Translations under genes and position numbers: made by a program | Assembly: GCA_031266275.1 (NCBI GenBank) | Contig: JAISBI010000027.1 | Span: forward strand, 1 to 34,715 | Origin: Candidatus Nomurabacteria bacterium | Lineage (GTDB): Bacteria; Patescibacteriota; Saccharimonadia; Saccharimonadales; Saccharimonadaceae | Length of the DNA: 34,715 nt | Reading direction: 5' to 3' | In this document: in pieces, positions 2,053 through 22,511 of the stretch | Layout: each line of letters starts with the position of its first letter | How positions within the stretch are numbered: the first letter of the stretch is position 1 | The notes under the pieces: generated by a model | Database searches by the model: none | Told to the model about the DNA's origin: nothing | The model's input: the letters and a program-made list of their open reading frames with translations, nothing else

Positions 2053-3148
2053 TTTTGACCTCCGTTTCAATTAACATTTTATTAGTTTCAATTCGCAGAT
2101 TGTCGCCGACATCGGCTTCACACACCACTTGCCCGTTCGCGTCATAGACCAGCGCATAGCCGCGCCGCAAAATTCGCTCGGGATTGAGCTGCTCTAGTAG
2201 CGTCGTCAATCCTTTCAGCTGATTTTCAGTTTTCTCGGCCGCCAAATTCAGTCGATTTAACAGAGACGAGAGCGTATCGTCAACTCGCCGCTCGGCCGCA
2301 TTCAGCTGATTTTCAGTTTTCACAATCAAATGTTTCAAACTGGCGTCGAGCCCAGCCATCAATTCGCGCTTGTCCGGCAATAATATTTCCGCCGCATTGC
2401 TCGGCGTCGAAGCGCGCACGTCGGCCGCCAAATCGGACAATGTCGTATCAACTTCATGACCAATCCCCGTGACAATCGGCACACGGCTGGCGGCGATTTT
2501 GCGCACTAACGGCTCATCGTTGAAAGCCGCCAAATCATCGGCCGAACCACCGCCACGCACGAGCGCGATGACTTCTGGTGGCCGCGCCATTTCGTTGAAA
2601 TGCTCAATTCCCTGCATAATCTGCTCCGGCGCGTCCAGCCCCTGCACCAATGTGTGATAAACTTCGATTTTCAATCCGCCAAATCGCGCGCCCAAAATCT
2701 TGATGAAATCTTTATAACCAGCCGCGTCAGTCGACGACACTACACCGATGCGACTAGGCAGTTCCGGCAGCAACCGTTTGCGCTCCGGTGCGAACAGACC
2801 CTCGCCCGCCAACTTCGCCCGCAACAATTCAAAAGCTTTTTTCAAACTGCCCTCGCCGACCGGCTGAATTTGTTCGACCGTCAGCGAAAACTTGCCCCAA
2901 TTAGTGATTTTTGGCCGCGCCACAATTTTAATCATCATGCCGTCTTCAATCGGCGTGCGCAAACTATACAAACTCATGAAGCAACCGAGCGAACCGTCGT
3001 CGTCTTTGAGGTCGAAAAAGACCCATTTGCCTTGATTGACTTTGAAACTGGCCACCTCGCCGACAATGGTCATGGTCGGGAAAATCTGCTCCAGCGATTG
3101 ATTCAAAACCGCAATGGCGCCCGAAACGTCGAAAACTGCTTCACTCAT
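2036..3148 (-). CDS. xseA: Exodeoxyribonuclease VII large subunit
   Basis: 370 aa, somewhat shorter than the usual 400-450. The N-terminal OB-fold (about residues 1-100, with IVGEVASFKVNQGKWVFFDL) is followed by the catalytic domain, with PSRIGVVSSTDAAGYKDF, VRGGGSADDLAAFND and VTGIGHEVDTTLSDLAADVRASTPS. A coiled-coil region and a C-terminal segment (ILRRGYALV) complete the family architecture. ExoVII degrades single-stranded DNA from both ends in repair and recombination. The ATG overlaps the recJ stop (ATGA, 3145-3148), so the exonuclease genes form one coupled operon. Confidence 0.96.
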   Translation of the reverse strand: MSEAVFDVSGAIAVLNQSLEQIFPTMTIVGEVASFKVNQGKWVFFDLKDDDGSLGCFMSLYSLRTPIEDGMMIKIVARPKITNWGKFSLTVEQIQPVGEGSLKKAFELLRAKLAGEGLFAPERKRLLPELPSRIGVVSSTDAAGYKDFIKILGARFGGLKIEVYHTLVQGLDAPEQIMQGIEHFNEMARPPEVIALVRGGGSADDLAAFNDEPLVRKIAASRVPIVTGIGHEVDTTLSDLAADVRASTPSNAAEILLPDKRELMAGLDASLKHLIVKTENQLNAAERRVDDTLSSLLNRLNLAAEKTENQLKGLTTLLEQLNPERILRRGYALVYDANGQVVCEADVGDNLRIETNKMLIETEVKNVKSK

Positions 3149-4932
3149 GATTCAATTGTATCACAACTAATCAATCGGCCCTCGACGCTGGTGCGGCCAT
3201 TCCATTCGTTCAGAGACGGCGTGAATAAAACTTTATAAAGTTTGTCCGACGCTATAAAGTTTTTGAGCTCATCCGCTGCGCCAAATTTAATCATCTCGAT
3301 GACTTTGCCGCCGGCGTCTTTGAAACGAAACTTGACATGTTGATTTTCTGCGCCCAGCGTTTTTTTGCCAATAATTTGTAATTTTTTGGCCGCCAAAATC
3401 GGCTGTTCGTTGCCCATGCCAAACGGTTCGAGTAAAGCTAGTTCCTTGACCAACTCTGCAGTCACATTTTTAAAATCATCAATCTCGACGTCCGCCGTCG
3501 GCTCCAAAACCTCCGCCTGATTTTCGAGCGCCAAAGAATTATAAAACCTGTTCACTGCCACGCGAAACTTGGCCAAGTTTTTCGTCGCCATAGTCACCCC
3601 GCCAGCCGCCGCATGCCCACCGCCCCTCTGAATCAAATCGCGCGCTGCGTCAATCGCCGCCGCAATCGAAAAATCGCCAAAACTACGCGCACTGCCCTTG
3701 CTCGTGCCATCCGGCAATTCCTCGAAAACAAAAACCGGCCGCTGATACTTCTCCATCAATTTACTAGCCACAATCCCCACCACGCCGTGCGACCAGCCAG
3801 CCCCCGAAACCACAATAACCGAAGGAGCTCCGGCACTACTCTCAGGGGCATTTCGATTTACATTTGATTTAACAATGAGATCCACTTCTACCGACAAGTC
3901 GGTAGAAGTTAGCTCATTGGAAATCAAGTGGCCCCTAAGAGTAGTGCCGGAGCTCCTGTCACTATTAATTTTCTCAACAGCTTCCTCAAAAATCCGCTCC
4001 TGCGTCCGCCGCCGCGCATAATTCAACTCATCCAACTCCTGTGCCAATCCAAAAGCCTCCTCCGCACCATCCGCCCGCAAAAGCCGCAAAGCAATCTCGG
4101 CCGTCTCCAACCGCCCCGCCGCATTCAGTCGCGGCCCGATGGCAAACCCAATCGCCCGCGCATCTAATTTCTCTGGACTAACCTGCGCCACCGACAGCAA
4201 AGCTCTCAATCCAGCCCGCCTCACCTTGCGCAAAACTTCCAGTCCCCAGTAAACCAACACTCGATTTTCATCCGTCAAAGGCACAATATCGCAAATCGTC
4301 CCGAGAGCCACCAAATCCAACCACCACTTCTCCTGTCCCGCCTTAACCCGAGACGTCACCTCGCCCCGCGTCAAAATCGCCCGCACCAACTTGAAAACCA
4401 CCCCGACCCCCGCCAAATCACCGAAAGGATACTTCGAATCATGCCGCTTCGGGTTGACCACCGCCACCGCTGGCGGCAAAACTTCGCCCACGCTATGATG
4501 GTCGGTGATAATCACATCCATGCCAAAACTGCCGGCCAATTCCACTTCTGCCACCGACAACGAACCGCAGTCGACCGAGATAATTAAATCAACATTCATC
4601 TCGGAAATCTTCTCGATGGCGTCCATATTCAACCCATAGCCTTCGGCAAATCTATCCGGCGTATAAGTCTCGACCTGCTCCGCGCCGAACATCGCCAATG
4701 CCTCGCCCAGCAGCACCGTCGCCGTCATGCCGTCCACATCATAGTCGCCATAAATCAAAATCCGCTCGCCCTGCGCTATGGCCCGCGAAATTCGCTCAAC
4801 CGCCGCTGTCATATCCGGCAGTAAAAACGGGTCATGCAAGCCATCGTCATAATTGGGATGCAAAAATTCTTCGACTTTCGCCGAAGTTTCATAGCCGCGT
4901 CTTGCCAAAACTTTCTCGACAATCGCGTTCAT
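3145..4932 (-). CDS. recJ: Single-stranded-DNA-specific 5'-3' exonuclease RecJ with an in-frame palindromic insertion
   Basis: 595 aa. The DHH domain shows DYDVDG (63-68), SVDCGS (119-124) and TDHHSVGE (143-150); the DHHA1 part has RGGGHAAAGG; a C-terminal OB-type domain follows. RecJ acts in RecF-pathway recombination, base excision and mismatch repair. Residues 326-370 (RSSGTTLRG to NAPESSAGAPS) are encoded by a 135-nt palindromic element, exactly 45 codons, between the helix ending EEAVEKINSD and the strand VIVVSGAGW. RecJ proteins normally have only a short loop there, so the gene looks intact and functional with an added loop. The start overlaps the stop of the wHTH gene (TGATG), indicating coupling. 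Confidence 0.95.
   Translation of the reverse strand: MNAIVEKVLARRGYETSAKVEEFLHPNYDDGLHDPFLLPDMTAAVERISRAIAQGERILIYGDYDVDGMTATVLLGEALAMFGAEQVETYTPDRFAEGYGLNMDAIEKISEMNVDLIISVDCGSLSVAEVELAGSFGMDVIITDHHSVGEVLPPAVAVVNPKRHDSKYPFGDLAGVGVVFKLVRAILTRGEVTSRVKAGQEKWWLDLVALGTICDIVPLTDENRVLVYWGLEVLRKVRRAGLRALLSVAQVSPEKLDARAIGFAIGPRLNAAGRLETAEIALRLLRADGAEEAFGLAQELDELNYARRRTQERIFEEAVEKINSDRSSGTTLRGHLISNELTSTDLSVEVDLIVKSNVNRNAPESSAGAPSVIVVSGAGWSHGVVGIVASKLMEKYQRPVFVFEELPDGTSKGSARSFGDFSIAAAIDAARDLIQRGGGHAAAGGVTMATKNLAKFRVAVNRFYNSLALENQAEVLEPTADVEIDDFKNVTAELVKELALLEPFGMGNEQPILAAKKLQIIGKKTLGAENQHVKFRFKDAGGKVIEMIKFGAADELKNFIASDKLYKVLFTPSLNEWNGRTSVEGRLISCDTIES
3823..3957. repeat. 135-bp palindromic element inserted in frame in recJ
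   Basis: The outer arms 3823-3849 and 3931-3957 are 27 nt each and complementary with one mismatch (a wobble pair in RNA). The inner arms pair as 3861-3870 with 3921-3930, 3874-3879 with 3913-3918, and 3884-3895 with 3898-3909 (12 perfect base pairs around an AA loop). The whole unit folds into one long hairpin. Its boundaries coincide with codon boundaries of recJ. No transposase and no obvious target duplication are visible. It resembles in concept the Rickettsia palindromic elements found in frame in coding genes; no sequence relation is claimed. Confidence 0.85.
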
Positions 4933-5925: not shown

Positions 5926-7157
5926 GCCGCTTCTTTGTTTAGGGCTTCTGCCGCGGCAACGGCGTCGTGGGCGTAAATCGTATCATTTTCGTCCATACCG
6001 GCTTCTCTGGCCATTTTAATCTGCTCGCTGGCCGATGCCATTTTGTCAAGTCCCGGAATAATTTTACCGATGGTATTGCGCAAAGCTTCGTCGCCCCATG
6101 TGCTGATTTGGACATCCATGCCTTTCGCGTGAGCTTCTTTGACGGCTGATTTGACCAGCTCAGCGGCTTTTTCTGCGTGACCGAATAATTTCATAACTCC
6201 CGCCTTAATAAAGACACCAGATATACCCTTGCTGAGACCAGTCTCTTCGTAAAATTCTTCCGGCGTTTGAACCAGAACCGTTTCGCCCTTGTCATCATTA
6301 ACGGTCGAAACTTCCAACGGGCCTAATTTAGCCCATCTACCCTCTGTTAATTTATGAATACGCGCGACATCTTCGTCACTAAACGGCGACGGTTCGACGG
6401 TTTTTTCCGCAAAAACTGGCTTTTTGTTGACGATGAGCGGAATTTCCGGCGCGATTTGATAGACGGCGGCCAAAACGCTCGGCTCAAGTGAGGCGATTGC
6501 AACACTGTCTTCGACGCCATGCTTTTTCAACTTGTTCAAAATCTCCGCCACGCCGGCCGCTGAATCCTCGCCTAAATCCTTGACTTCGATAATCATATGA
6601 TTACCGTCGTCTTGGTATTCTGCCAACAGCCCCAACACGTCGTCCAACGTGTCTTTTTTGCCGCGCTCTTTTACTTCCGCCGTCGTCTGTTCGCCAACTT
6701 TCTCACCCGAGATTACCGACTCATCACGGCCCCAATGGGTCAAAACGAATTCGCCCTCAGCGTTGGGCCGGACATCGATTTCGACCGCCACATTACCCTT
6801 TTTATACATTTCCTCGACGAAGCCTTTGCCGGAGCTCCAAGCCGATTTGTTAACCAAGTTATATTGTTGTTGCGTCGCGCGATTTTGGTCCAAAATATCC
6901 AAAGTCTTATTCATCGTTTGATACAACGCATCAGCCTTTTTCACCTCTTCGAAAAAGTTCCTGTCCGGATTGTAATAATCGTCAGCTTCGGCGACTTTAC
7001 TCTCCTCAAACATGCCCTCCAATTTCAAAGCCACCTCACCGACGTCATCATACAGGGCAAATTTTTTCGCCTGCTCCATATTTTCGGCCAGACCGCGCTC
7101 GGCAGTCGGCTCGTCTGGAACCTGGCTATTATTTTGTATATTAACTATTTCACTCAT
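5922..7157 (-). CDS. GDPD/PI-PLC-like TIM-barrel protein, cytoplasmic, function unknown
   Basis: 411 aa without a signal peptide or membrane segment. An N-terminal helical region of about 110 residues precedes a segment resembling glycerophosphodiester phosphodiesterases: [20 protein letters not shown] (compare E-x-D-V...DG...H), [20 protein letters not shown] and later barrel strands ([28 protein letters not shown]). The usual HRG...ENT entry motif is not evident and the HD of the family is HW here, so catalysis is doubtful. It heads an operon with ung (4-nt overlap), which does not explain its job. Start supported by AAGGAA upstream of ATG 7157. Confidence 0.55.
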
Positions 7158-9133: not shown

Positions 9134-9568
9134 TTACTCCTCTAATTCTTGGCGATAAAGCGAACCTAAAACTCCGTTGATGAACTTCGACGAATTGTCC
9201 GAGCCAAATTCTTTGGCCAGCTCCACAGCTTCGTTGATGGCTACTTTCGGCGGAATTAAATCCCCCATATGCAATAATTCATAAGTCGCCATCAGCAAAA
9301 TGATGTGGTCAACGGTGGAAATCTGATTAATCGGCCACTCCGGCGCCAGCGGCTGCAAGATTGCGTCCAATTCTGTGGTCGATTTCACGGTTTCTGTGGC
9401 AAGTTTGCGCACGAAATCTTTGTCGCCCAATTCTTTGTCGTAACGATTCAAGTTCTCAGTCAAAATATCGTCCAAATTCGCGGTTTTGTCATCGCTGGCG
9501 CTCCGAAAAATATATTCGTATATCGACTGCAGTGCTATGATGCGGCCCAAATGCCTATTGCTTGCCAT
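9134..9568 (-). CDS. nusB: Transcription antitermination factor NusB
   Basis: 144 aa, typical size. The family pattern is clear: an N-terminal helix [15 protein letters not shown], central [20 protein letters not shown], and C-terminal [18 protein letters not shown] then [17 protein letters not shown] and [12 protein letters not shown]. NusB binds boxA RNA with S10 and supports rRNA transcription. GAGGAG lies upstream of ATG 9568, and rpmF ends 30 nt upstream. Confidence 0.96.
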
Positions 9569-9598
9569 GTTTAGTTGCTCCTCACCTCTTATTTAATA

Positions 9599-9748
9599 TT
9601 ATTTATTCCCAGTCTCACGCCGCGTGGTCGTGACTTTAACCGGTGATTTTGCGTTTACCGCCCGTGCTAATTTCAAGCGCAGATGACTGCGCCGCAGCCC
9701 CGTTTTACGCGGGGAGGTCTGCCTCTTTGGCACACTTTTTTTTGCCAT
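9599..9748 (-). CDS. rpmF: 50S ribosomal protein bL32
   Basis: A 49-aa ORF from ATG 9748 to TAA 9599: MAKKSVPKRQTSPRKTGLRR, then SHLRLKLARAVNAK and a basic tail. The VPKR(Q/K)TSP...R(R/K)...RR(S/A)H pattern at the N-terminus is that of bL32, and the small, highly basic composition fits. AAGGAGAG lies about 6 nt before the ATG. It leads the rpmF-nusB-nudix-rnc-truB operon. Confidence 0.9.
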   Translation of the reverse strand: MAKKSVPKRQTSPRKTGLRRSHLRLKLARAVNAKSPVKVTTTRRETGNK

Positions 9749-14801: not shown

Positions 14802-17027
14802 CTAGACGTTCGCTACACACCTTACTGCATAACCGTAGGTTCTATATGTGGTATTGGTCCAATCCACGGAAGTGGAATGGAGAATAATCCTGTTTGCACT
14901 GTCTACTGTGTTGTTAGCGGAGGAAGACCAATAGTAGCCTATGTTGTTTTGATTAGCGTAAGAGCTGTTAAAAATCCCACTATAAACAGCAAGCCAGGTG
15001 GTGCGCAAGCCAGCGTCTGAATTATTAGCTCCCGAGTTGACACTGGTGTTAAGAGTAGCAAGCTCGCTATTGTTACCTCCGGTCGGCAAGCGCCAATTAG
15101 CTGGGCAAATTGAAATTGCTGTGTCAAGATTCGAATTATTCTTGTTGGTACAAGCGTTAGTGTGCCCGCCCATTGCCGCACACCAGTTATAGAGATAACC
15201 ATATTGACCGCCCGAACCAGACGTGGTGCTAGGGTTGGTAGGCTCGGTGGTGACTGCAGACCCGCCTGTGTTTGGGTAATAGCGAGGCTCGGTGTAAGAA
15301 GCTGCTGTGCCGAGAGTGATGGTTCTGGTATCGTTATAATTAGTCGCTCCGCCGCCAGTATACGCTAAGTTAGTCAACATCCAGCATTTTCCGTCTGCCA
15401 ATTTTTGTATCCAATAAGAGTGGTTGTCGCGAAAGTCGTAGACACGGGTTCTAGTGGTTGGGCATTGGGCTATGTTGGTAAGGGTTTGCATGATGGCACC
15501 GGTTTGGAGCGGAGCGAGTACTCCAGTATAACTCCACTGTCCTGTGCGTGCATCAGATTGGGTGGTAGGGTTGTCTGTGCCTGTTATGCAACTATAGTAT
15601 CGTGTATTACCACCAACTGCGGTGGTTGTAGTTGTACCACTAGCGTTTGGATAGGAGCCACTGGCTGTTCCCCATGTGCAGACTGTATTGGCTGTAGTAC
15701 TAGTGACGGTAATGGTGGTGGTGCCTGATGGGATGTTGGTGGCGTTGTTAGCCGGTGTAGTGGTTGGTACTGCTGGTAGTGGGTGTTTGTAGGTATAGTC
15801 GTCAGCTGTGGTAGCGGTAGTTGGTAGGTCTGAGCTGGTCTTGGTGGTACCTCCCCAGGTCTTTACTACTAGGTCATAGGTGCCTGGTGTAATGGTTAGT
15901 CCGGAGCTGGTTTCACTGGGTAGGTCACAGGTGATGGTAGTGTTAGGGTTTGTGGGGTCAGTTATATTAGCATTGGTACAGGCTTCACCGGGTTTATTAC
16001 TAGTGCCACTGTCTTGTTCTCCATTACTATTTAGATCTATGAACACTTGGTAGGTAGTATCTAGGTTAGTGCCCGTGATAGTTATGGCTTTGGTTTCGGT
16101 GGTGGTGCCTATGGTGGGGGTAAGGCTAGTGATGGTGGGTGGTGCTGGTGGGGTGTAGGGGTTGGCAGTGACTGTGATAGTTACGGTATTGGTGTATGGG
16201 TTAGTGGTTGGTGTGGCGGGTAGGGTATTGTTTACTTTGGCTCCTATGGTAAGGGTTTGGGTACCATTGTTGTCTGGGTCGTCTGGGTTGGTGGGTTGGT
16301 GGGTGTTCTTAATGATGCTAGGTGCAGTACTGGCTGGTATAGCAAACCATAGTGGGTCAGTGCTAGGGTCGGGTGAGAATGAGGAAGTAGGGGCGGTAGA
16401 GGCTCCCCATTGGTTAGGACTAAGGGTGCTGGGGGTAATGATGCCAGAGGGGTCTATGGTGCCGGTGGTGGGGTTAATGATGTTTACGGCATCGGTGCAG
16501 TCATTGCCGTCGGTTAGGCGACGGAGGCAGGTGTCTGATGGGTCAGAACTAGGGCTGGTGGTGTTTAGTCTGGTGGTATAGCCAGAGGGGTTATCCGTGG
16601 TTACGACTATATTGGCAGTTACTTGGTTAAAGGTGTTGGGGATGAGAGAAAGAGTGGTGGGAGAGGCTATGGGAGAGATAGAGAGACTGGGGGAGGAGGC
16701 GGGTTTGAGGGCGTTGGTGGGTAAGGCAGAGACAATTGGTACTGGTATAGGTGGGAATAAAAGGAAGAAAGCTATGGCTAGGAGTGGTGGTAAGGAGACA
16801 AGGGGAACCAAACAGGAGTTGGTTAGGATTTTAGGTAGTTTAGAGAGGAAGTTGGTGGTAGTAGTAGTGGTGGTAGTGGTACGGAAAGGACTGTGATTAG
16901 TGTGGTGGGGATGAAAGGTAGAGGGTGGGTAGTGGGAGTTGGTTGGGATACGTGGTAGTTTAGAGAGGGGGTTAGAGTAGAGGTTAGAGTAGAGGTTAGA
17001 GCAAAGGTTGGTTATTGCGCGAGGCAA
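14802..17027 (-). CDS. Secreted FISUMP-domain surface protein, paralog B (phase-variable start)
   Basis: 741 aa counted from TTG 17027. A Thr/Ser/Asn-rich N-terminus with T9 (50-58) and SNLY repeats is followed by a signal or anchor helix at about 72-92. Then come a Pro/Thr-rich region, an IPT/TIG-like Ig module (about 296-415, PTITSLTPTIGTTTETKAITITGTNL), a second Ig-like module (417-502) and a C-terminal FISUMP domain (about 515-741). FISUMP signatures are KLADGKCWMLTNL, YGYLYNWCAAM, ICPANWRLPT, YYWSSSANN and YGYAVRCVANV. TTG has no Shine-Dalgarno; an upstream GTG/ATG (17161/17158) with AAAAGGG leads into this frame only if the (TC)11 tract changes to 10 or 13 units, giving about 784 aa. 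Strand composition is extreme (A/C-rich coding strand). Confidence 0.85.
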   Translation of the reverse strand: MPRAITNLCSNLYSNLYSNPLSKLPRIPTNSHYPPSTFHPHHTNHSPFRTTTTTTTTTNFLSKLPKILTNSCLVPLVSLPPLLAIAFFLLFPPIPVPIVSALPTNALKPASSPSLSISPIASPTTLSLIPNTFNQVTANIVVTTDNPSGYTTRLNTTSPSSDPSDTCLRRLTDGNDCTDAVNIINPTTGTIDPSGIITPSTLSPNQWGASTAPTSSFSPDPSTDPLWFAIPASTAPSIIKNTHQPTNPDDPDNNGTQTLTIGAKVNNTLPATPTTNPYTNTVTITVTANPYTPPAPPTITSLTPTIGTTTETKAITITGTNLDTTYQVFIDLNSNGEQDSGTSNKPGEACTNANITDPTNPNTTITCDLPSETSSGLTITPGTYDLVVKTWGGTTKTSSDLPTTATTADDYTYKHPLPAVPTTTPANNATNIPSGTTTITVTSTTANTVCTWGTASGSYPNASGTTTTTAVGGNTRYYSCITGTDNPTTQSDARTGQWSYTGVLAPLQTGAIMQTLTNIAQCPTTRTRVYDFRDNHSYWIQKLADGKCWMLTNLAYTGGGATNYNDTRTITLGTAASYTEPRYYPNTGGSAVTTEPTNPSTTSGSGGQYGYLYNWCAAMGGHTNACTNKNNSNLDTAISICPANWRLPTGGNNSELATLNTSVNSGANNSDAGLRTTWLAVYSGIFNSSYANQNNIGYYWSSSANNTVDSANRIILHSTSVDWTNTTYRTYGYAVRCVANV

Positions 17028-22356: not shown

Positions 22357-22459
22357 ATAGACTACGATACTGTGGTCTATGAACTTTTACCGTGTGGCTT
22401 AAACGGCGATTGTTTTGCCCTGTTTGCTTATCTGTTTAGATAGGCGAACAGGGCAAAAC
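22357..22459 (+). promoter_or_regulatory. Structured 5' leader: two stem-loops ahead of the gene at 22512
   Basis: Stem 1 is ATAGACTAC with GTGGTCTAT (22357-22365 with 22372-22380), beginning at the predicted first nucleotide. Stem 2 is a 22-bp helix (22412-22433 with 22438-22459) around GTTT, fully paired when two G-U wobbles are allowed. No U tract follows, so it is not an intrinsic terminator. It could be an RNase III site, an mRNA stabiliser or a regulatory leader. No known riboswitch consensus is apparent. Confidence 0.7.
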
Positions 22460-22511
22460 ATACGATTTGCTCAATTGAATTTATCATTGTTATCTGAAAA
22501 GGAGATATGAA

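Follow-up and report, generated by a model that had tools for sequence, protein, structure and literature searches.

The closest described counterparts of the element reported here are the Rickettsia palindromic elements (RPE; Ogata 2000, 2002; as described in PMC10969869 and PMC3733652), and especially the longer ones of the RPE-1 type, which are palindromes of about 100-150 nt forming several families, lacking a transposase of their own, and lying in frame in unrelated housekeeping genes whose proteins tolerate them. As general background, RPE families align along their length. Also, intragenic REPs tagged with GTAG or CGTC have been reported as dispersed palindromes, some of which sit in frame within genes for DNA replication and repair (PMC3733652); their units measure 20-40 nt, carry a tetranucleotide tag and, for GTAG, have a RAYT transposase. 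Finally, nematomorph mitochondrial genes contain perfect inverted repeats that are translated and whose arms stay identical while changing (PMC6649704).

The palindrome that we describe in a recJ gene resembles RPE in all the traits listed above; its 135 nt meet the RPE size criterion, and that of in-frame copies in unrelated genes is met by recJ, mnmA, valS and ksgA. It differs from them in having another core, whose asymmetric internal loop is conserved, apparently also in copies that combine a near-identical core with private outer arms, and in a host that is probably not an alphaproteobacterium. The CGTC end tag of RPE-4/-6 (PMC3733652) is absent from the recJ copy. By analogy, the recJ element probably works like RPE; no RPE consensus was compared and membership is not claimed. 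With intragenic REPs it shares the dispersal of palindromes and the occurrence of some in frame, and with the nematomorph palindromes the presence of inverted repeats in translated genes. In the latter, however, both arms are conserved protein sequence, with no added element and no dispersed common core.

The recJ gene and its palindromic insert

The minus-strand ORF at 3145-4932 of the window (the whole 34,715-nt stretch of DNA that was analysed) encodes a RecJ of 595 aa without interruption (NCBIfam TIGR00644, 517.6 bits against a cut-off of 396.9) in which the GDYD, DHH and GGGH motifs are all retained. The element occupies 3823-3957 on the same sense strand and leaves the frame intact; its 135 nt correspond to 45 codons, for residues 326-370, which include LISNELTSTDLSVEVDLIVK as a translation inferred from the open frame. 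Its termini are AGGAGCTCC..GGAGCTCCT. The inverted repeat 3823-3862/3918-3957 spans 40 nt with 85% complementarity, and its outer 27 nt (3931-3957 as the 5' arm and 3823-3849 as the 3' arm in gene sense) pair at 26 of 27 positions, the outermost ~20 nt being private to this copy. At the apex, the stem-loop 3884-3909 has a perfect stem of 12 bp (3884-3895/3898-3909), a part of the element where pairing is retained between copies and length and sequence vary. The minus-strand motifs GCTAAC (3908-3913) and GTGGATC (3879-3885) form the 5' and 3' sides of one asymmetric internal loop, GAG[CTA]AC and GT[GGAT]CTC. Folded as DNA, the element reaches -53.4 kcal/mol versus -14.7 +/- 2.7 for dinucleotide shuffles (z -14.1), and none of 200 shuffles folded as well. 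An earlier sequence-only reading had claimed a near-perfect 135-bp hairpin with 27-nt arms that inserts 45 codons in frame, and both claims held.

Alignment to solved RecJ proteins places the insertion point between the DHH and DHHA1 halves, where the linker measures 50 aa versus 9 aa (QAEQYKNDP type) in about 36 related genera. The claim of 45 added codons is thereby refined, as the net gain is about 41 aa (123 nt), slightly below the whole palindrome length. Since the proteins of relatives lack the insert, we consider it an addition to RecJ, and the same applies to MnmA and KsgA. The placement on a surface loop, also claimed earlier, rests only on this interdomain position, inferred from the alignment without a modelled structure. 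The relatives compared share about 55% protein identity, a genus-level distance, and no same-species empty site was available; without a true empty site, no direct repeat flanking the element was seen by eye. An Rfam scan of the whole window gave a tRNA as its sole match, with no family over the recJ element.

Dispersed copies, conserved core and private arms

In the 792-kb host genome (an incomplete assembly in 42 contigs, ~92% complete), DNA search and covariance models found seven full copies plus what is probably a single relic. The DNA search gave a core 95% identical in mnmA and weaker matches at contig C21 and in iscS, and the covariance models added copies in valS and ksgA and two further intergenic ones (C36 and C20). 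Thus four full copies lie in genes, named by NCBIfam equivalogs: recJ, mnmA (C38, about 6390-6528, minus strand), valS (C42, about 9520-9626, plus) and ksgA (C9, about 9523-9606, plus). The other three (C21, C36, C20) are intergenic, and the seven range from 101 to 139 nt. The iscS match (LIGKSNVKDAPGK, E 0.008) is probably no more than a half-copy relic. A core of about 93 nt is dispersed in this genome and has added codons in frame in four genes. All four coding copies lie on their gene's strand, with the GCTAAC motif in the same phase, and in each of them exactly one sense frame is free of stops, always the gene's own, the other two being closed. This pattern is what would be expected from selection for tolerated, translated inserts, an explanation that we favour on the basis of open frames, with no protein data. 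At its insert site MnmA has 47 aa versus 3 aa in relatives, and KsgA is about 50 aa longer than its relatives.

The same element was not found in 245 genomes of the family, 392 of the order and 379 of the phylum, barring one marginal AT-rich match without the motif (G494), and the exact core pattern had no match in viral contigs. The sequence-only reading had proposed a new mobile palindromic family able to live in genes, naming as support multiple copies, some in other ORFs, and absence from related recJ genes. Both were found (seven full copies, four in genes; about 36 related genera without the insert), and the proposal is supported, with mobility inferred from dispersal. Neither condition that would have refuted it, an insert conserved as ordinary protein sequence or present in a single copy, holds. 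The genome search with the 27-nt arm that it suggested is unsuitable, since each copy has arms of its own and only the inner core is conserved.

The conserved unit consists of this core, in which the asymmetric internal loop is invariant, the 3' bulge is conserved and the stems covary. From outside inward, the outer arms are followed by a 3'-side bulge with GAAAT or a similar sequence at its end, a helix that is TTGATTT/AAATCAA in most copies, a variable helix, the internal loop (5'-GAG[CTA]AC and 5'-GT[GGAT]CTC) and the apical stem, which in ksgA, C36 and C20 has only two base pairs. In a five-copy alignment 93.6% of cells were paired and 15 of 30 pairs had changed on both sides; none of 500 shuffles matched the observed pairing, and slid registers fell to 40-49%. 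This alignment had been fitted to the structure, so the pairing score is somewhat favoured. The conservation of unpaired bases in a setting of exchangeable stems points to a folded strand being recognised, with no distinction between RNA and single-stranded DNA.

The recJ and mnmA cores agree at 88 of 93 positions (95%). Their arms have an identity of 0.48 (null 0.36, p 0.06) and a self-complementarity of 0.95-1.00. It remains possible that part of their inner arms is homologous (p 0.06) and has undergone some gradual divergence with compensation. A similar pattern was found in a Coriobacteriaceae MAG (G488; L213-L242) with about 36 model matches. Among the 24 copies examined, the core is near-identical (mean identity 0.89 on the 5' side), arm identity is 0.51 (null 0.46), and arm complementarity is 0.95 within a copy versus 0.50 across copies; the stems, of 17-30 bp, are unique to each copy and most are bounded by TCC|GC and GC|TAC. 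In genus G002, two copies within one mnmA share 85 of 92 core positions and have unrelated arms. As near-identical cores bear unrelated, self-complementary arms, we think it likely that each copy acquires its arms or has them remade. Pre-existing terminators as landing sites are an unlikely source, as the coriobacterial copies stand apart from ordinary terminators; no bare stems with the same borders were found in 70 kb of flanks. A simple inverted duplication of the target was also rejected: it fits recJ (135 - 12 = 123 nt net) and fails for mnmA, where alignments place both arms within the added residues and such a duplication cannot explain them unless the loop was already long.

Hairpins in other genomes

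An exact search of GTDB genomes with GAGCTAACTN{4,34}AGTGGATCTC returned at least 120 stretches. Most are multi-copy palindromes of Planococcaceae, other Bacillota and Coriobacteriia. Like the recJ element, they carry the GAGCTAACT..AGTGGATCTC internal loop inside a long hairpin and, in coriobacterial G488, private arms; they differ in being mainly intergenic and in their lower stems. Since the pattern fixed the loop, loop conservation among its matches is not independent; a looser pattern gave the same loop bases on the G488 copies. Homology with the recJ element is thus a possibility that remains unproven beyond a loop signature of about 19 bases and the hairpin context, and convergence on a common recognition motif may be the explanation instead. 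One in-frame copy of the core lies in coaX of a coriobacterium (L166), and it is likely that the core is able to live in genes of another phylum too. Rfam found only unrelated families at six Bacillota/Coriobacteriia loci, and no published description of the core was found in the literature searched. In Domibacillus enclensis (L105, L128), two inverted core hairpins about 300 nt apart make up larger, MITE-like repeats of up to about 540 nt.

We also surveyed RecJ, MnmA and KsgA in about 30 related genera per protein for lineage-specific inserts of >=25 residues, and most of these are hairpins at the DNA level. They occur in MnmA of G002, G005, G015, G019 and G020 and in RecJ of G005, G015, G017, G019 and G020, with z mostly between -3 and -10, versus a mean of -0.03 (sd 1.25, minimum -3.0, n=81) for ordinary coding segments of the same genes. 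The exceptions are the MnmA inserts of G017 (z -1.4) and G037 (z -2.0), one 25-aa RecJ insert of G019 (z -2.1), a short KsgA stretch (L292, z +1.4) and a domain-like insert of 208 residues (188-395) in RecJ of G027 (L071, z -0.9). This last insert resembles a HAD/nucleotidase domain (VDIDDVLSDTANWF..). The relatives' hairpins lack the core of the recJ element and are free of stops. The same MnmA loop is the site of unrelated hairpins in six genera, and at one RecJ site a diverged hairpin is common to G015 and G017. G019 has its own motif, common to its recJ and mnmA, and its sampled stretches hold further hairpins in genes read by eye as prmC and dnaG; G002 has its own family, repeated within mnmA. 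A census of sampled stretches that required strict arms overlooks degenerate copies, for instance in G002, and does not give a rate. Taken together, several separate families with the same in-gene habit probably exist in this bacterial family. The sequence-only reading had considered such insertions a rarity documented mainly in Rickettsia, and this is corrected by the published intragenic GTAG/CGTC REPs and by the unrelated in-frame hairpins of these relatives.

Some further observations concern these hairpins. The G005 mnmA insert (L246) and a dnaG-like ORF of G019 (L358:14635-14784) hold unrelated hairpins with a common apical module, ACATCCCC..GGGGACCCTGT, which could tentatively be a second core family. 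A palindrome of 22-24 nt, TTTGCAGGACCNGGTCCTGCAAA, occurs in several copies in G019 (L353, L354, L356, L362), three of these stretches lying inside long ORFs. Hairpins of the TGTCATTCCG../TGTCATTGCGAGG.. type, similar to REPs with a CGTC tag, were seen in the host genome (L315:16055-16128, C15), in G005 recJ (L076:2165-2224) and in G019 RecJ (L072, residues ~200-226), the latter two in frame within recJ.

Proposed mechanism and rival explanations

The most likely explanation is that the recJ insert is a copy of a small non-autonomous mobile palindromic element, acting as a folded single strand and translated as an extra loop, where mobility is inferred from dispersal and translation from open frames, with no protein data. 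In this view, a copy would land at a random site, and the survivors would be those landings that keep the frame, in the single stop-free sense frame, within a tolerant protein loop. The added residues would be translated as a harmless loop, and a selfish element would survive in genes only if silent at the protein level. A weaker inference is that the moving unit may be the core, with outer arms synthesised afresh at each insertion; snap-back or template-switch synthesis at the hairpin is our preferred, unshown, origin for them. The mover might be an enzyme acting in trans, or one since lost. The absence of a transposase, as claimed earlier, holds for the Y1 class (PF01797), the sole one searched, which was not found in the ~92% complete genome, positive controls being detected. 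A bolder reading, which we offer only as a possibility, is a mobile hairpin class that crosses phyla, whose apical core with the GAG[CTA]AC/GT[GGAT]CTC loop moves and whose long stems are made anew each time; every landing would yield a new private palindrome, which in small-genome bacteria would often lie in an essential gene. Genome sizes in the host's order are 0.5-1.6 Mb, from which a patescibacterium-like host was inferred.

Other explanations were considered. One is that the hairpin is lost from the mRNA through self-splicing or RNase III processing, or is avoided in translation by ribosome bypass, the open frame being incidental. The conserved unpaired nucleotides and covarying stems do resemble a functional RNA fold, and RNase III naturally acts on long perfect helices. 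Against this, in each of the four full coding copies the gene's frame is open and the other two sense frames are closed, the relatives' unrelated inserts are likewise stop-free, and Rfam gave no ribozyme or intron match; as a removable element needs no open gene frame, we regard removal as very unlikely. An assembly artefact or chance palindrome, conceivable in an incomplete 42-contig assembly, is practically ruled out by the z of -14, seven distinct full copies with covariation, intact frames and independent analogues in related genomes.

Less remote, and still unlikely, is that the element is a large relative of GTAG- or CGTC-tagged REPs moved by a REP-associated tyrosine transposase. REPs are also small palindromes dispersed within and between genes, replication and repair genes included (PMC3733652), and GC|TAC, which reads GTAGC on the opposite strand, is the terminus of many of the 24 coriobacterial copies. 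However, no Y1 transposase was found in the ~92% complete host genome, neither GTAG nor CGTC stands at an end of the recJ copy, and its family measures 101-139 nt with a conserved internal loop, versus 20-40 nt for REPs. Identity with a GTAG REP was rejected for the 135-nt recJ copy, without a GTAG terminus and in a genome without Y1 transposase. The terminal inverted repeats common to all copies that mark a MITE of a DDE insertion sequence are lacking too, as near-identical copies have unrelated outer arms. We also doubt that these are old, fixed and immobile hairpins, drifting freely in sequence and kept perfect by RNA-structure selection or arm-to-arm template switching, an origin proposed for the nematomorph coding palindromes (PMC6649704). 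The unrelated hairpins in one MnmA loop of six genera and the diverged G015/G017 hairpin would fit such a history, but cores 92-95% identical stand at different sites with unrelated arms (recJ and mnmA in the host; two MnmA sites in G002), and recent copying is needed because ordinary drift cannot randomise arms and yet spare the core.

With the mobile element as the preferred reading, selfish DNA inside translated genes would reach beyond Rickettsia into another lineage with reduced genomes, in whose RecJ, MnmA, KsgA, ValS, PrmC and DnaG several unrelated families behave likewise. The pattern of a common core with private arms limits models of how palindromes move and grow, and the common loop may serve as a handle for the search of the enzyme, as a core-rich genome should encode the mover. 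Such elements would also be a source of lineage-specific protein loops, liable to be misread by annotators as protein evolution. Elsewhere in the window, 22411-22460 holds a 23-bp inverted repeat (91%) with a 4-nt loop, outside ORFs by census and unrelated to the recJ element, and the minus strand at 14802-17027 encodes a 741-aa protein with a FISUMP (Fib_succ_major) domain at its C-terminus.
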